Shown here piece after piece: positions 38,323-46,302 of a stretch of DNA of 64,000 nt. The notes under the pieces are model-generated. The model was not told the origin of the DNA. It worked only from the letters and a program-made list of their open reading frames with translations, and made no database searches. The stretch lies in the NCBI GenBank assembly GCA_029262455.1, contig JAJCZJ010000020.1, positions 248,001 to 312,000 of the forward strand, written 5' to 3'. A program made the position numbers and the translations under genes. Origin of the DNA: Deltaproteobacteria bacterium. GTDB lineage: Bacteria > Desulfobacterota > Binatia > HRBIN30 > CADEER01. How positions within the stretch are numbered: the stretch's first letter is position 1; each line of letters begins with the position of its first letter.

Positions 38323-38739
38323 CACAAAAGGCACGATCAAGCTCAACAGTCGGCCGGCGTATCCAAGCCGGTCGCCGGCGACTTTAGCGCGCTACTCCTT
38401 GGCTCGGTAACACACAAACACGTAGCGCGTGTCCTGTTTTTCAACGGGCTGCCAATGAGTTTCTCTTCCGCATCTCGTCCCCCGAAGAGTTCATTGCTCG
38501 GATACTGAGACCGTGTGCCCCCAATGTCCAGAGCGCGGGACTCGTGCGACGACGAGATCCTCAAGACCACCGACCGTTATAGACTCGATCGAAACCTGTA
38601 CTGACAGCCCCAAAGCAGTTTGACACAGTAGAACGCACGCCGCATTGTGAGCAGCCCCAGCAGGGCTCAGCGGACTCAACAGCCCATCAGCCGGCATTGG
38701 ACAACGCTGGTGTTCCCCCAAGCGCCCGGAGGAAAATTC
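38323..38739. other. Divergent intergenic region
   Basis: About 417 bp between the PhoD-like gene and the VioB-like pair. It carries the likely promoter of the pair (38620-38648) and its GGAGG ribosome site. No other gene or RNA is supported. Confidence 0.45.
38620..38648 (+). promoter_or_regulatory. Possible promoter for the split VioB-like pair
   Basis: A perfect -35 hexamer TTGACA (38620-38625), 17-bp spacer and a weak -10 CATTGT (38643-38648), about 85 bp upstream of ATG 38740. Only three of six -10 positions match consensus. Confidence 0.35.
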
Positions 38740-40656
38740 ATGAGCTACTTATCCAGCCCGAGAATGCACTTCGCAGGCTACTTTCAGGCCGATGTTTCGA
38801 CCATCAACAACGACGTCCGCCACTTCGACTCAGCGGCGTTTTTGCCGAAGTATCAGTTGCCGCAGCACGGCAACGAAATGAACGGATGGTGGAACCCGGA
38901 GGGATCTGGGGCGTACCGACTGGTGCAATGCACGATCACCGGCGGGGTGCTCAACGGCAATCCGATCGCCACCGCATCCGACGATCCCGCTATTGGTATG
39001 ACCATCTCCGGGTCTGATGGTCGGGTCAGTGGCAAGTTGGTCGATCTGGACCCGCAACAACAGATGGTTTCCCAGATCTGGGGAATGAGCGTCCGACTCA
39101 CGGACGGCTCCGCTAAAGATTTGTTCAACAGCGAATACCGCGTTGCCCCCTTCATGAACCTCTGGCGTCGGCAACAGGGCCCTTCACAAGGAGATCAAAC
39201 ACTCGCAGCCAAGTATCAGTCGGTTCTCGAGAACGTCGTCTGGAGCGACACCCTGGGATCGCCGCTTGTCGATGCAATCCGGGCCGCGAGCGACGACGGA
39301 GTTCTGTCGATCGATTTCAACGTCTTCGGATACAAAATGGACGCTTCGTCTCCGACTTTCACTCTAGGTCGGATCATCGGCACGATCGGGCCAGCGGGCA
39401 AAAACGACCCGGCTCACTTCGTGATTGGCCGACACTTGATGGCGACGTTCGCCGGTGGCGACCCGACGACACCGATGCAGGGAATCTACAATCTCCCCTG
39501 CGTCGTCGATACCGATTCAACGACGGTGACCGCCAACCTCGGCAATGCAATCCCCATCTCCAACGCCGACGGCACCCCACAGAACCTGGGTGAGCTGCAG
39601 ATGGCCGTTCTCAAGAACACCGGGACGGCCAACGGCGACGTCATCGATTCCAGTGAAATCGAAATCCTCGGCCAAGTGCCGTATCGGGGCGATGGATGGT
39701 ACACGCAAACCGCCGGCGTCATCGATTTCCCCTACACCGGTAACCAGTGGGTGGAAGACAACATTCACGATCGGCCTCTAGCCTTGGTCCGTCCGGCCGG
39801 CCACGACGACTACAGCGTGTTGATCCGCGAGGGACAGGACGGCCTCTACATGCGTGCCGACGAGCACGTCTATCGTCTAGATCCCGGCACGTCAGCCAGC
39901 GTCGAATTCTTTGCAAGTCGCTACGGCCATCCTCACGAAGGCAAGATCGATCTGTCGGCCAACAACACCATGATCGGCGGCGGGGGTGGGCCGAATCAGC
40001 TCCATCCGCATGTCGATATCCCCGATGTCGGAGATCCACCGGATGCGATCAGCTATCCAAACACCATCGCGACGGACGCCAACGGCCGTGCGACGTTGAC
40101 TCTCACCGCGTCCCCCACCGGACCCGGTAACCCTCGTCAATACATCGACGGTCAACTCTACGGAATCGGCTATTCGCTCACCGATCAGCCGCCGGGATAC
40201 AACAGCAACCCTTGGCTATTCGTCAGCGTTCTCGTTTGGGACGCGATCGAAGCACCCGACGAACCAACCTGGTACCGCGACATTCAGCCGATCATGCAGC
40301 AGTACGGCAATCTGTACCCGATCATGAGCAAACACCTGGTCGACCTCGGCGACTACCAGTCTGTCGTCGAACACCGCTCGATCCTGAAGCTCGCTTTCGG
40401 GCTCCCCGTCAGCGATCCCAACTACATGCCGGTGACGCGAGACCTATCCAGCGCCAAGCGCGACATGCTGCTCGCGTGGTTGGACTCGATCGGCCCGAAC
40501 GGACTGCCCATCAAAGGACATTCACAGCAGAGCGGCGCTCGGGGCCGCGCTAGCCTCAAGGCGGCCGTTGGGTCGCTGACCGAGAGCGTCTCGGCAGCCG
40601 CAACCGCTGGGGGCAAGACCACGTTTCTGGAAAACTTGAAGCAAAAGGCACGCTGA
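38740..40656 (+). CDS. VioB/RebD/StaD N-terminal-domain-like protein (first half of split enzyme)
   Basis: A 638-residue cytosolic-looking protein with no signal peptide. The start MSYLSSPRMHFAGYFQADVS and the DVRHFD just after parallel the N-terminus of VioB-type iminophenylpyruvate dimer synthases (…FPRIHFRGW…). The end, around WYRDIQPIMQQYGNLYPIMS and NYMPVTRDLSSAKRDMLLAW, parallels the segment that in VioB leads into its ferritin-like domain. In VioB/RebD/StaD both parts are one chain of about 1,000 residues that couples two imine units. Here the chain stops, and the next gene, 13 bp on, carries the ferritin-like part. Ribosome site GGAGG before ATG 38740. Residues 600-638 are an Ala/Ser-rich tail. 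Confidence 0.65.
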   Translation: MSYLSSPRMHFAGYFQADVSTINNDVRHFDSAAFLPKYQLPQHGNEMNGWWNPEGSGAYRLVQCTITGGVLNGNPIATASDDPAIGMTISGSDGRVSGKLVDLDPQQQMVSQIWGMSVRLTDGSAKDLFNSEYRVAPFMNLWRRQQGPSQGDQTLAAKYQSVLENVVWSDTLGSPLVDAIRAASDDGVLSIDFNVFGYKMDASSPTFTLGRIIGTIGPAGKNDPAHFVIGRHLMATFAGGDPTTPMQGIYNLPCVVDTDSTTVTANLGNAIPISNADGTPQNLGELQMAVLKNTGTANGDVIDSSEIEILGQVPYRGDGWYTQTAGVIDFPYTGNQWVEDNIHDRPLALVRPAGHDDYSVLIREGQDGLYMRADEHVYRLDPGTSASVEFFASRYGHPHEGKIDLSANNTMIGGGGGPNQLHPHVDIPDVGDPPDAISYPNTIATDANGRATLTLTASPTGPGNPRQYIDGQLYGIGYSLTDQPPGYNSNPWLFVSVLVWDAIEAPDEPTWYRDIQPIMQQYGNLYPIMSKHLVDLGDYQSVVEHRSILKLAFGLPVSDPNYMPVTRDLSSAKRDMLLAWLDSIGPNGLPIKGHSQQSGARGRASLKAAVGSLTESVSAAATAGGKTTFLENLKQKAR

Positions 40657-40669
40657 GCGGAGGTCCATC

Positions 40670-41725
40670 ATGATTAAGCTCGATCGCAAGTATGTCGAAC
40701 AGGTCCAAGCCAGTGCTACGAAGGCGGACTTGTTTCCGCTGCTGCAGAACGCCATCGAATTGGAGCACGCAACGATTCCGCCTTACTTGACAGCCATGTT
40801 CTCGCTCAAGGCCGGCACCAACGACGCCATCCGTAGCCTGATCCGGTCGATCGTGTTCCAGGAGATGTCGCACATGACGATCGCGGCCAATCTACTGATC
40901 TCGATCGGTGGCTGCCCTCAAATCAACACGCCGGACTTCATCCCCAAGTACCCAGGCAAGCTGCCGATGGGAATCGGTGGCCAAGACTTCGAGGTGCCGA
41001 TCAAACACTTCTCGAAGGAATTGGTCCGCGATGTCTTCATGGTCATCGAAGAGCCCGAGCACCCGGTCTATGTGCAGCCACCGGAAGCCGGGCTAGAGGC
41101 CGCGCAAGACCAATTCGCCACCATCGGGGAGTTCTACGATGCAGTGAAGCAGAAGATCGAAGATCTCGGGGACGGCATCTTCGTCGACGACCCGAAAAAG
41201 CAGGTCGTCGAGTGGTTTGAAACCGATCGAGTGTTCCCGATCACCAACGTCGAGACGGCTGGCAAAAGCATCGACGTGATCGTCGTCGAAGGTGAGGGTA
41301 CTCGTACGACGCCGTTCGAATCACCGGCGGACCCGGCACACTTCTACAAGTTCAGCGAGATTTACGAAGGGCAACGGATCGTCGAGACGCAAGACGGATT
41401 TGCCTATGCCGGAGCTTCAATTCCATTCGACGCGACCGGCGTCTTCCCGATGGTCGACAACCCGAAGGTCGCCGATTTTGCCATCGGCACCGCCGCGCGC
41501 ATCGGCGTCGAGCGCTACGCCTACAGCTACAGCAGTCTGCTCAACGCGCTTCATGTCGCGTTCAACGGCAAACCCGATCACATCAACACGGCCATCGGGC
41601 TGATGTACTCACTGAAGATCGAGGCCGTCAATCTCATGTCGATCCAGGTCGGCCAAACCGGGCAAACCGCCGGTCCGAGCTACGAATACCGCAACACCCA
41701 AGGGGGAGTCAGCGCGGCTTCATGA
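40670..41725 (+). CDS. Ferritin-like domain protein, VioB C-terminal-like (second half of split enzyme)
   Basis: A 351-residue protein with a ferritin-like four-helix domain of the PF12902 type found at the C-terminus of VioB/RebD/StaD. Helix 1 is AIELEHATIPPYLTAMFSL (Glu30, Glu32, His33) and helix 2 is IVFQEMSHMTIAANLLISIGG (Glu65, His68). These E and ExxH positions are where di-metal ligands sit. It lies 13 bp after the N-terminal-like gene, behind a GGAGG ribosome site, so co-translation is likely. Sizes 638 + 351 sum to the length of a typical fused enzyme. No amino-acid oxidase (VioA/RebO) is encoded nearby, so the substrate is open. Confidence 0.7.
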   Translation: MIKLDRKYVEQVQASATKADLFPLLQNAIELEHATIPPYLTAMFSLKAGTNDAIRSLIRSIVFQEMSHMTIAANLLISIGGCPQINTPDFIPKYPGKLPMGIGGQDFEVPIKHFSKELVRDVFMVIEEPEHPVYVQPPEAGLEAAQDQFATIGEFYDAVKQKIEDLGDGIFVDDPKKQVVEWFETDRVFPITNVETAGKSIDVIVVEGEGTRTTPFESPADPAHFYKFSEIYEGQRIVETQDGFAYAGASIPFDATGVFPMVDNPKVADFAIGTAARIGVERYAYSYSSLLNALHVAFNGKPDHINTAIGLMYSLKIEAVNLMSIQVGQTGQTAGPSYEYRNTQGGVSAAS

Positions 41726-43316: not shown

Positions 43317-43377
43317 TCACCGGTTGATGAGGCTGTCCGGGTTCGCCATGCCGGCGCCGGACTGCTAGCTTAAGTTG

Positions 43378-44754
43378 GTGAATCAGGGCTCATCTGGCGC
43401 GGCGCGCACGAACGTTCCACCCGTCGTTCGAGTCGTCTACCTCCTCGGGATCGCGATCTCTCTATTCCTATTGCGCGAGTCCGTCTCGGTCGGCGGCCTG
43501 GTAGCGCTGCAGCTCGTTCTCTGGCCACTGGTCGGCCTTCCCGGCGCGGGATTATTGCGTCAGCTCCGCAAATTATCGGTTTTTGCGACAGCGATCTTGG
43601 CGACCTATGCCCTCTTCGGCGAGGTCCGGCCCGGAGCGCCGACATGGGATGTCGGGCCGTTGCAACTCGACGCAGCCAGCATCACCGTCGGCATCCTGAT
43701 GGTATTGCGAATCGTCGGAGTCGTCCTGGCCTCGCAGATCGCCCGCGCCGGCGACCCGCGTTCCCTCACTGCAGGTTTGCAACAGCTTGGACTACCCCAA
43801 CCCGCGGCGATCAGCCTCGACGCCATTCTCGCACTACTCGGAGAAGCCGGCGACAGCACCAACACCAAGCGCGGTGGCGGTGGTGGTGGTGGCGGCGGTG
43901 GCGGTGGCGGTGGTGGCGGTCGAGGCAAGAACCGCGCCGCGGCCACCGCGCAGGATCCGACCGCGGACGGTCCGACAGCGGAAGAAGGTGGTGGCTGGCG
44001 CGCGATGGCGGATTGGGCTCGTCACCTGCGGCGCGGCGACCTACAACCACTCATCCGACGGTTGGACGACTCGGTACGGCGAGCGCAGATCCAGGTCGGC
44101 GACCAGGCCTCTCCCGGTTCCGACCTCGCACCGATCGTCGGCATCGCCGTGACCATGCTCGGCTTCAAAGCGCTCAAGATTCTGCCCGGGCTGCCGTACG
44201 CACCTGGACATAAGCTGATCATCTTTCTGCCCCTGTATGTAATCGCGGCGGTGCGCACCAAGAGCCGCTTTGGCGCCACCTATGTCGGACTCGCCCTCGG
44301 CTTCGCCAGCTTTCTGATGGGCGACGGCAAGTACGGTATTTTCGAGGTGCTCAAGCACGTGGCACCCGGACTCGTTTGCGACCTGGCTCTGCCACTCTTT
44401 CGATCGACACCGCGCGGCATCGCGTTCTGGACCGTATTTGGCTCCATCGCCGGGGCCACACGTTTTGCCACCGAGTTTTGCGTCATCGCCCTGGCACAAC
44501 CACCCGCGGTCGCCTATGCCCTACTCTTCCCGGGATTGGCCTCCAACCTTTTTTTTGGTTTCCTTTCTGGCTACCTTACGCGTCATGCGCTGGTCGCCCT
44601 CGAGGAGGTCGACCGCGACGGCAACGACAACACGAGCAAAGAAAAGAGGCACGGGGATGGGACAGTTGGAAACGGGGGACGGGCGCACTCACGTCAAGTC
44701 AAAGCTGATGCGCGAATCGCTGGTAAACCGCGACGTAGTGGCGCAGACGGATAG
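43378..44754 (+). CDS. Membrane protein resembling an EcfT-EcfS fusion, molybdenum cluster
   Basis: A 458-residue membrane protein in two parts. Residues about 15-160 resemble an ECF-transporter T component: several helices, then VLASQIARAGDPRSLTAGLQ and QLGLPQPAAISLDAIL, like the EcfT coupling region. Next is a linker with 16 consecutive glycines (43873-43920). Residues about 255-425 form 5-6 helices resembling an S component (LPYAPGHKLIIFLPLYVIA; GATYVGLALGFASFLMGDG; LKHVAPGLVCDLALPL). No EcfA ATPase is encoded here. Start is GTG 43378 or TTG 43375, without clear ribosome site. The polar tail overlaps the next gene by 98 bp. Inference: import of molybdate/tungstate or a related metal. Confidence 0.55.
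   Translation: MNQGSSGAARTNVPPVVRVVYLLGIAISLFLLRESVSVGGLVALQLVLWPLVGLPGAGLLRQLRKLSVFATAILATYALFGEVRPGAPTWDVGPLQLDAASITVGILMVLRIVGVVLASQIARAGDPRSLTAGLQQLGLPQPAAISLDAILALLGEAGDSTNTKRGGGGGGGGGGGGGGGGRGKNRAAATAQDPTADGPTAEEGGGWRAMADWARHLRRGDLQPLIRRLDDSVRRAQIQVGDQASPGSDLAPIVGIAVTMLGFKALKILPGLPYAPGHKLIIFLPLYVIAAVRTKSRFGATYVGLALGFASFLMGDGKYGIFEVLKHVAPGLVCDLALPLFRSTPRGIAFWTVFGSIAGATRFATEFCVIALAQPPAVAYALLFPGLASNLFFGFLSGYLTRHALVALEEVDRDGNDNTSKEKRHGDGTVGNGGRAHSRQVKADARIAGKPRRSGADG
43873..43920 (+). repeat. (GGT/GGC)16 poly-glycine codon tract
   Basis: Sixteen consecutive glycine codons in mixed GGT/GGC order, inside the fused transporter gene, joining its two membrane halves. Prone to slippage and therefore to length variation. 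Confidence 0.9.
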
Positions 44755-45493
44755 CCCGCGCGAATACGAAATCATGCCGCACGTGTCGCTGGTCAGTATC
44801 GGCGGCAGATCGATTTTCGACCGCGGCCGATCGGCACTCATGCCCATCGTCGATGAGCTCGCAGCGACACGAAAAAAGCACCCAATCGTGGTCGGCGTCG
44901 GCGGCGGTACGCGGGTGCGTCATACAGCTTCGATCGCGCTCGATCTCGGACTACCCACCGGCGGCATCGCTCAATTGATCGGCGCGATGGAGGAGTGCAA
45001 CGCCGTCTTCCTCAACGCCCTGCTCGCCAAACACGGCTCGATCCAAATGCCGCGCGACCATTTCTGGGAGCTGTCGATGTACATCGATAACGGCATGATC
45101 CCAATCGTCATCAGTGTGCCGCCCTACCATTTCTGGGAGCCGCCGCCAGAAGTCGGAGTCCTGCCGGCACACGGTTCGGACTTCGGTCTTTTCATGCTCG
45201 CCGAAGTCCTCGGCATGAAAAAGATCATCTTCGTCAAGGACCAGGACGGCCTGTTCGATCGGGACCCGGCCAGACACGAAGGCGCTCGCCACATCGAGAA
45301 GGCAACTTTGGCGGAGTTGAAAGCCGACATGCCACCCGAGGTCATCCTCGACGAGCTACTGTTCTCGGCTTGGGAGAATGCGCGCCACGTCAAGCGCATT
45401 CAGATCGTCAACGGCCTGACCCCGGGAGCTCTCACGCGTGCGCTCGACGGGGAAGACGTCGGCACCGTTCTGACCAAGGAGAGCGCATCATGA
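44657..45493 (+). CDS. Molybdenum storage protein subunit (MosA/MosB-like, amino-acid-kinase fold)
   Basis: A 278-residue amino-acid-kinase-fold protein of the molybdenum-storage (MoSto) type. GG in LVSIGGRSIFDRG (about 46-56) and GVGGGTRVRHTASIALDLGLP match the nucleotide-binding core. ARHVKRIQIVNGLTPGALTRAL and EDVGTVL match the C-terminal signature of MosA/MosB. In Azotobacter, MosA and MosB form an alpha3beta3 cage that stores about 100 Mo as polyoxometalate using ATP. Start: ATG 44657 has GAGG upstream but lies inside the previous gene; ATG 44708 is an alternative. Its TGA overlaps the next ATG. Confidence 0.85.
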   Translation: MGQLETGDGRTHVKSKLMRESLVNRDVVAQTDSPREYEIMPHVSLVSIGGRSIFDRGRSALMPIVDELAATRKKHPIVVGVGGGTRVRHTASIALDLGLPTGGIAQLIGAMEECNAVFLNALLAKHGSIQMPRDHFWELSMYIDNGMIPIVISVPPYHFWEPPPEVGVLPAHGSDFGLFMLAEVLGMKKIIFVKDQDGLFDRDPARHEGARHIEKATLAELKADMPPEVILDELLFSAWENARHVKRIQIVNGLTPGALTRALDGEDVGTVLTKESAS

Positions 45494-46302
45494 GTGACGT
45501 CGATCAGCAGCGGCAGCTGTCCATCGCCAGCGCTCTCGAAGACGCGACGCTGACGACATCCGATGTGAAATTCGACTACGACCCGGTCGCCATCATGCCC
45601 GATGTCAGGGTCATGAAAATCGGCGGGCAATCGGTCATGGACCGCGGGCGCACCGCGCTCTTTCCGATCCTCGAAGAAATCGTCGCCAACAAAGATCGAT
45701 TTCACATGCTGCTGTGTTGTGGCGGCGGCACGCGCGCCCGGCACATCTACGCGATCGGCGCCGATCTCGAGATGCCGACCGGAGTCTTGGCGGCCATGGG
45801 CGGCTACGTGCCGATGCAGAACGCCCGCATGCTGCAGATGCTGCTCGCCAAGCACGGCGGCATCTTCATCGACGAAGACGACTTCGTGAAGCTTCCCCTG
45901 TACTTCCAGATGGGGTGTTTGCCGATCATGACCGGCATGCCACCTTTCTCCTACTGGGAAAAGCCGGGCAAGAACGGTCGGATCCCATCAAATCGCACTG
46001 ACGCCGGCGTCTTTTTATCCGCCGAATTCCTCGGCGCACCGCGCGCCATCTTCGTCAAAGACGAAAACGGACTCTATGAGGACGACCCCAAGAAGAACCC
46101 GAAAGCGAAACATATCCCTCGCATCTCAGCCGCCGAGCTGATCGAACGCGATTTGCCCGATTTGGTGGTCGAGCGAGTCGTCATCGACTACCTGACCCGG
46201 GCGCGATTCTGCAAGGAGATACAGATCGTCAACGGTACGGAACGGGGAATGCTCACGCAGGCCCTCGAAGGCGAAGACGTCGGGACCATCATCCACGCCT
46301 GA
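45490..46302 (+). CDS. mosB: Molybdenum storage protein subunit MosB-like
   Basis: A 270-residue paralogue of the preceding gene and the same length as Azotobacter MosB. VMKIGGQSVMDRGRTALFPI (42-61) is closer to MosB than to MosA; CGGGTRARHIYAIGADLEMP and IFVKDENGLYEDDP follow the UMP-kinase-like layout. Overlap of start and stop (ATGA) with the first subunit predicts 1:1 synthesis for a heterohexamer. The presence of both subunits next to modABC supports metal storage rather than pyrimidine kinase function. Whether the cage holds Mo or W cannot be told from sequence. Confidence 0.87.
   Translation: MSDVDQQRQLSIASALEDATLTTSDVKFDYDPVAIMPDVRVMKIGGQSVMDRGRTALFPILEEIVANKDRFHMLLCCGGGTRARHIYAIGADLEMPTGVLAAMGGYVPMQNARMLQMLLAKHGGIFIDEDDFVKLPLYFQMGCLPIMTGMPPFSYWEKPGKNGRIPSNRTDAGVFLSAEFLGAPRAIFVKDENGLYEDDPKKNPKAKHIPRISAAELIERDLPDLVVERVVIDYLTRARFCKEIQIVNGTERGMLTQALEGEDVGTIIHA

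Follow-up and report, generated by a model that had tools for sequence, protein, structure and literature searches.

A two-gene variant of the VioB/RebD superfamily in a deltaproteobacterial genome and its relatives in other phyla

A two-domain enzyme carries out the first carbon-carbon coupling in the biosynthesis of violacein and of indolocarbazoles; in the violacein, rebeccamycin and staurosporine pathways this enzyme (VioB, RebD and StaD, respectively) is one chain of about 1000 residues, VioB and RebD are described as haem-containing, and their substrates are the imines delivered by VioA or RebO. Here we describe two adjacent genes in a 64,000-nucleotide stretch of deltaproteobacterial DNA (the window, meaning the whole stretch analysed), the products of which, P1 and P2, correspond to the two halves of such a chain; their place in the VioB/RebD superfamily, as a variant made up of two genes, is well supported by sequence comparison. 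We consider it probable, though well short of certain, that P1 and P2 assemble, as its two subunits, into a single cytoplasmic metalloenzyme of the VioB/RebD/StaD superfamily, which likely couples aromatic amino-acid derivatives. The analysis goes beyond an earlier note on this DNA in three respects: the pair belongs to a widespread family, that family includes naturally fused members, and it is linked to ebo genes.

The gene pair and its match to VioB/RebD

P1, the N chain (638 aa), is encoded on the plus strand at 38740..40656 including the stop codon (coding 38740-40653), and P2, the C chain (351 aa, with a PF12902 ferritin-like domain), follows head to tail on the same strand at 40670..41725 including the stop (coding 40670-41722). 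The ATG of P1 is at 38740 (context CCCGGAGGAAAATTCATGAGC) and that of P2 at 40670 (context GCGGAGGTCCATCATG), each with a GGAGG-type ribosome-binding site close on its 5' side; the site serving P2 (GGAGG) lies within the 13-bp gap between the genes (40657..40669, plus strand). The P1 reading frame is also open from an upstream GTG at 38647, and the start was placed at 38740 because of the homologues and the ribosome-binding site. Third-position G+C of the two genes (0.73 for P1, 0.77 for P2) is like that of the neighbouring genes (0.70 and 0.73). A PhoD-like phosphatase gene precedes P1 on the opposite strand, while downstream of P2 there are genes for a GH10 glycoside hydrolase, a CbiQ-like protein and two amino-acid-kinase-family proteins; no violacein or indolocarbazole gene was recognised in this neighbourhood. 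The CbiQ-like membrane protein gene and the two amino-acid-kinase-family genes in tandem behind it (43375-46302) resemble a molybdenum-storage-type arrangement. A phage origin of the pair was also considered, and a PHROG search gave no match.

The earlier note, made from the letters alone, had taken the 638-residue protein for the N-terminal part and the 351-residue ferritin-like protein for the C-terminal part of a VioB-type enzyme, and had suggested profile searches against PF12902 and the VioB/RebD/StaD family. In the searches both proteins matched. P2 covered the whole PF12902 profile (E 2.5e-65; 220.9 bits, cut-off 22.3), and P1 matched no Pfam family. Against TIGR04492, the VioB model, residues 500-608 of P1 aligned with profile positions 496-604 (E 2.7e-7, 28.8 bits) and residues 51-337 of P2 with positions 663-937 (E 9.8e-5, 20.3 bits); the two proteins thus fall on successive parts of a single VioB profile, almost without a shift in register. 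This colinearity bears out the note's reading of the genes, 13 bp apart, as a split counterpart of VioB/RebD, and the two lengths (638 + 351) do sum to that of the single-chain enzyme. Both scores are sub-threshold, the TIGR04492 cut-off being 1250 bits (the best score in a genome-wide search with this model was 18 bits), and by the curated definition the pair is not VioB. Profile-profile comparison aligned columns 1-611 of the N family with columns 1-691 of VioB/RebD (99.7%, pairwise E 1.7e-26) and columns 23-354 of the C family with columns 662-1027 (probability 99.6%, E 6.8e-24), as compared to 0.1% in a control with the reversed reference. The VioB rows of the reference were 29 genes above the TIGR04492 cut-off, and its RebD-type rows were three plasmid loci (L091-L093), in each of which a flavin oxidase gene lies directly upstream. 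Judged by these alignments, the homology of P1 to the N-terminal half of VioB/RebD extends across the entire folded part of P1, and P2 is a homologue of the C-terminal half.

Residues R8, F11, G13, D102, Q160, G214, R231 and E364 of P1, as well as its segment Y562-M-P-x-x-R567, are conserved in both the pair family and VioB/RebD. In P2, E32, E65, H68, E127, E209 and H224 are common to the VioB and RebD rows, and are plausible candidates for the di-metal ligand set of the ferritin-like fold. The pair therefore resembles VioB (iminophenyl-pyruvate dimer synthase) in the homology of both halves, in their identical order, in the six candidate metal ligands and in the N-half motifs MSxLxxPRxxF at the start and YMPxTRxLS near the end; it differs in consisting of two chains rather than one, in having no VioA partner and in the position of its C half, which sits in a different branch of PF12902. 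RebD/StaD (chromopyrrolate synthase) are likewise homologous and colinear in both halves, as judged from the three plasmid loci, but RebD-type genes are single-chain, immediately preceded by the flavin oxidase gene and surrounded by tailoring genes, and no such neighbours are found here. Since the identity to VioB/RebD is only about 20-25% and both scores are far below the VioB cut-off, the reaction may have changed.

Split, reversed and fused members of the family

A scan for relatives of P1 in one genome per species yielded 36 loci, and a plasmid collection contributed 8 records; the analysed set comprises 41 loci. An N gene followed by a PF12902 gene is found in 28 of the 41, in addition to the window, and the gap from the N to the C gene is between -4 and 46 bp in 23 of 24 measured loci. 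The order is C-then-N in five loci: L008, which is one of the 41, and four others, of which L096-L098 are from genomes of the Undibacterium family, and L104, from an actinobacterium, has genes that overlap by 4 bp. Eleven of the 41 loci carry a single-chain form (nine complete, two cut by a contig end), and the N gene of L032 has no C gene that could be found near it. The single-chain members, from Pyrinomonadaceae, Solibacteraceae, Undibacterium, Myxococcaceae and Verrucomicrobiales, have the same two domains as the pair and an N half 39-44% identical to P1; unlike the pair they are one chain, with a linker of 8-12 residues and no tail motif. A Gloeothece plasmid (L042:2899-6305, minus strand) carries a second VioB-N-like gene (667 aa) without an adjacent ferritin-like partner; it adjoins the gene of a 444-aa protein that matches no Pfam family and contains CITCH, a c-type haem motif. 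Judging from this plasmid, the N half may be present in other enzymes too.

The hosts belong to at least eight phyla (Pseudomonadota, Bacteroidota, Acidobacteriota, Myxococcota, Cyanobacteriota, Verrucomicrobiota, Actinomycetota and SAR324). Within the window's own phylum the pair was found in one of 395 genomes, that of the window itself, and was absent from three congeners, which indicates horizontal acquisition; no other PF12902 genes were found in the window's genome. The divergence of the N chains from one another closely tracks that of the C chains: over 28 pairs the distances correlate at r = 0.94, as compared to a maximum of 0.50 under permutation. Adjacency, fusion in a sister clade and this mirrored divergence support the conclusion that the two genes behave as an evolutionary unit. 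In the records viewed the N chains are annotated as 'hypothetical protein' only, so that the family is missed by annotation based on PF12902 or on the VioB model, and no paper describing the two-gene family was found in the literature collection searched.

In a tree of the combined N and C halves, the closest partner of the window's pair is one from SAR324, with 53% identity in the columns retained, and a pair from a Mycetohabitans plasmid joins next. The fused family members form one clade (support 100), the sister groups of which are split pairs (support 97), and in the best tree they are nested within the split ones; VioB/RebD stand apart, in a clade of their own with a long branch. When the C half was analysed alone, VioB/RebD fell among PF12902 proteins from outside the pair family and apart from that family. 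The most economical interpretation has the two domains joining on two or more occasions; a single joining also fits, as a topology with one common fusion uniting VioB/RebD and the fused family members was not rejected (p-AU 0.145). A topology joining L104 to VioB/RebD was not rejected either (p-AU 0.334).

Two simpler explanations of the pair can be weighed on these data. Two open reading frames only 13 bp apart, with lengths summing to that of the single-chain enzyme, are what a decaying, split remnant of a VioB/RebD-like gene would leave behind, but an identical split recurs in many phyla, where the start sites are proper and the residues conserved; the nearest relatives of the window's genes are themselves split; the conserved columns are kept in both genes; and the third-position G+C is like that of the neighbours. 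Because the split form is a family present in at least eight phyla, the pair is not a broken VioB, and we regard decay as extremely improbable; the recurring split, the conserved columns and the neighbour-like third-position G+C likewise led us to reject a pseudogene or frameshift reading. The genes might instead be unrelated and neighbours by chance, with the ferritin-like protein working alone in iron storage or detoxification, as would suit both the PF12902 proteins that occur without an N half in most genomes examined and the solved single protein of the same fold (3hl1). This we consider very unlikely, if slightly less so than decay, given the near-universal adjacency, the natural fusions, the occurrence of both gene orders and the mirrored divergence of the two chains.

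Structure models and the C-terminal tail of P1

The structure models cover single chains only. AlphaFold2 modelled P1 (pLDDT 85.5, pTM 0.86) as a beta-rich protein with helices at 511-582, a disordered stretch at 593-624 and a C-terminal helix at 623-637. The fused homologue L013 was modelled as one compact unit (pLDDT 89.8, pTM 0.87), the C half of which superimposed on 3hl1 with a Z of 27.5 (rmsd 2.6 over 263 residues); P2 matched the same structure by sequence (E 1.4e-12). The protein concerned, CC_0557 of Caulobacter (PF12902, ferritin-like), shares the fold of the C half, and the solved chain has no N half. In the libraries searched, no solved structure was matched by the N half in sequence, and by fold its matches were limited to generic Ig-like ones (Z 5.1) to the sandwich at about residues 367-501, in a long model the other parts of which were barely probed; this is not evidence of a new fold.

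The earlier note had taken SSAKRDMLLAW for the end of P1; this stretch in fact lies at residues 570-580 and is followed by a tail of 58 residues. Residues 583-638 (40486..40653, plus strand) comprise a low-confidence linker and a helix containing GGKTTFLENL, and our guess is that this tail is a docking peptide for the partner chain. A pattern of the form [GSD]-x(0,1)-[KR]-x2-[FLAV]..., near the chain end and after a variable linker, was counted in 16 of the 22 split N chains from hosts other than Bacteroidota, as compared to a mean of 1.2 and a maximum of 5 in shuffled tails, an excess somewhat flattered by the pattern having been drawn up after the tails were viewed and by the separate counting of related sequences. 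The tail is absent from the eight fused junctions inspected, in which the halves are joined directly by a linker of about 8-12 residues. The seven Bacteroidota split N chains likewise lack both the tail and its motif, and docking therefore cannot rely on the tail everywhere. Five gammaproteobacterial N chains (L003, L006, L031, L012 and L007) carry a PC-x-x-C motif (e.g., IEPCASCEI) in an otherwise variable tail.

Genomic context and proposed reaction

When the neighbours of the 41 loci were clustered, the only set besides the pair itself that recurred across taxa consisted of six ebo families. At least one ebo gene is present in the examined flanks of 14 of the 41 loci, in nine taxonomic groups, and none was found around any of 23 loci whose PF12902 genes do not belong to this family. 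The other two neighbour clusters listed were long overlapping frames and histidine kinases, a common family (window, L036 and L044). A single EboE query, which could miss a distant EboE, had no match in the window's genome. The ebo genes have been assigned a role in the export of the scytonemin monomer, an indole-phenol, and are included in the EDB cluster of P. fluorescens NZI7 (PMC6282210), a cluster reported to convert tryptophan to indole products (PMC9655573). The ebo papers searched do not mention a ferritin-like gene, nor violacein where it was looked for. On plasmid pAB510b of Azospirillum sp. B510 (NC_013856.1) the pair is at 253222 and an EboE gene at 664704, far apart on the replicon. 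In Symploca (L008:3815-5743) the ferritin-like gene precedes the N gene within an ebo cluster, and its ferritin-like chain is C-terminal to an extension of about 300 residues with a signal-peptide-like beginning, which the N chain lacks. Such an extension on one chain only fits poorly with a single cytoplasmic complex in that organism, and its sequence suggests a possible periplasmic version.

The absence of a VioA/RebO partner, remarked upon in the earlier note for the window, was found to extend to the genome as far as a RebO query and a check of PF01593 proteins reach. The best match of the RebO query had an E of 2e-4 over 65 residues; the seven strongest PF01593 proteins are of the protoporphyrinogen oxidase, HpnE or CrtI types, and none of them matched an amino-acid oxidase model. 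No amino-acid oxidase or other source of imines was found linked to the pair in the window or recurring near its relatives.

In the mechanism that we propose, P2 would be the ferritin-like subunit carrying the candidate metal site (E32, E65/H68, E127, E209 and H224), and P1 the beta-rich subunit equivalent to the part that precedes the ferritin-like half in the VioB/RebD chain. P1 probably docks on P2, in part through its flexible tail and C-terminal helix, and probably helps to bind and orient the substrate; a physical complex of the two and the binding of metal by it are both likely. By homology, the complex would most likely carry out an oxidative coupling in which two activated derivatives of aromatic amino acids, either imines or 2-oxo acids, yield a dimeric intermediate; in many relatives the product would be moved out of the cytoplasm by the proteins that the adjoining ebo genes encode. 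Oxidative coupling of imines, known only in relatives within the superfamily, is a plausible activity of the pair by analogy.

The same two-subunit complex might instead act as an oxygenase or oxidase on one substrate molecule, with the N chain as its specificity subunit. No amino-acid oxidase is linked to the pair, its identity to VioB/RebD is in the 20-25% range, and the settings of PF12902 genes outside the family are diverse, one such gene having a GMC oxidoreductase as its neighbour and another sharing an operon with a radical SAM protein and a tryptophan 7-halogenase; all of this would suit such a role. The full-length homology of both halves is nevertheless specific to the coupling enzymes, and most PF12902 genes outside the family have no N half nearby; we thus see single-substrate chemistry as a serious but less probable alternative to coupling by P1 and P2. 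A more far-reaching version of the coupling proposal, which we hold to be less likely than not, is that the pair represents a family of oxidative dimerases, as yet unstudied, with two subunits and with tryptophan-type precursors as substrates. In such a family the N chain would dock on its ferritin-like partner through a short C-terminal peptide, which would have been lost upon fusion, and in many bacteria the product would be handed to ebo export. If this is true, non-cyanobacterial ebo clusters would often be units for both production and export of dimeric indole or aromatic metabolites.

The ebo linkage, the second trp operon upstream of the pair in Chitinophaga (see below) and the disordered linker and conserved C-terminal helix at the end of many split N chains, which the fused forms lack, are new here. 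The ebo link suggests a substrate class for an export system that is familiar chiefly through scytonemin, and points to many bacteria as places in which to seek new dimeric aromatic products. As the pair recurs in many bacteria, often beside ebo genes, it marks an unstudied branch and a candidate for tryptophan-type pigment or alkaloid chemistry. A natural two-subunit form means that the halves can be made, mutated and recombined separately, so that the role of each becomes testable; with the split, reversed and fused versions and the ebo link at hand, the same applies to the division of labour in this enzyme class.

With regard to the substrate, a tryptophan-type compound is our best guess, with modest support. 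In Chitinophaga solisilvae (L030:1-5919) a second, divergent trpEGDCBA operon, lacking trpF, ends directly upstream of the pair; most of its genes are about 52% identical to those of the main operon, which is located elsewhere in the genome (L126). This arrangement, seen in one genome, is the best hint of such a substrate. The window's own genome contains, on contig 105 (L127:7642-8990), a second, distant indole-glycerol-phosphate-synthase-like gene with 27% identity to TrpC, which overlaps a NUDIX gene by 4 bp.
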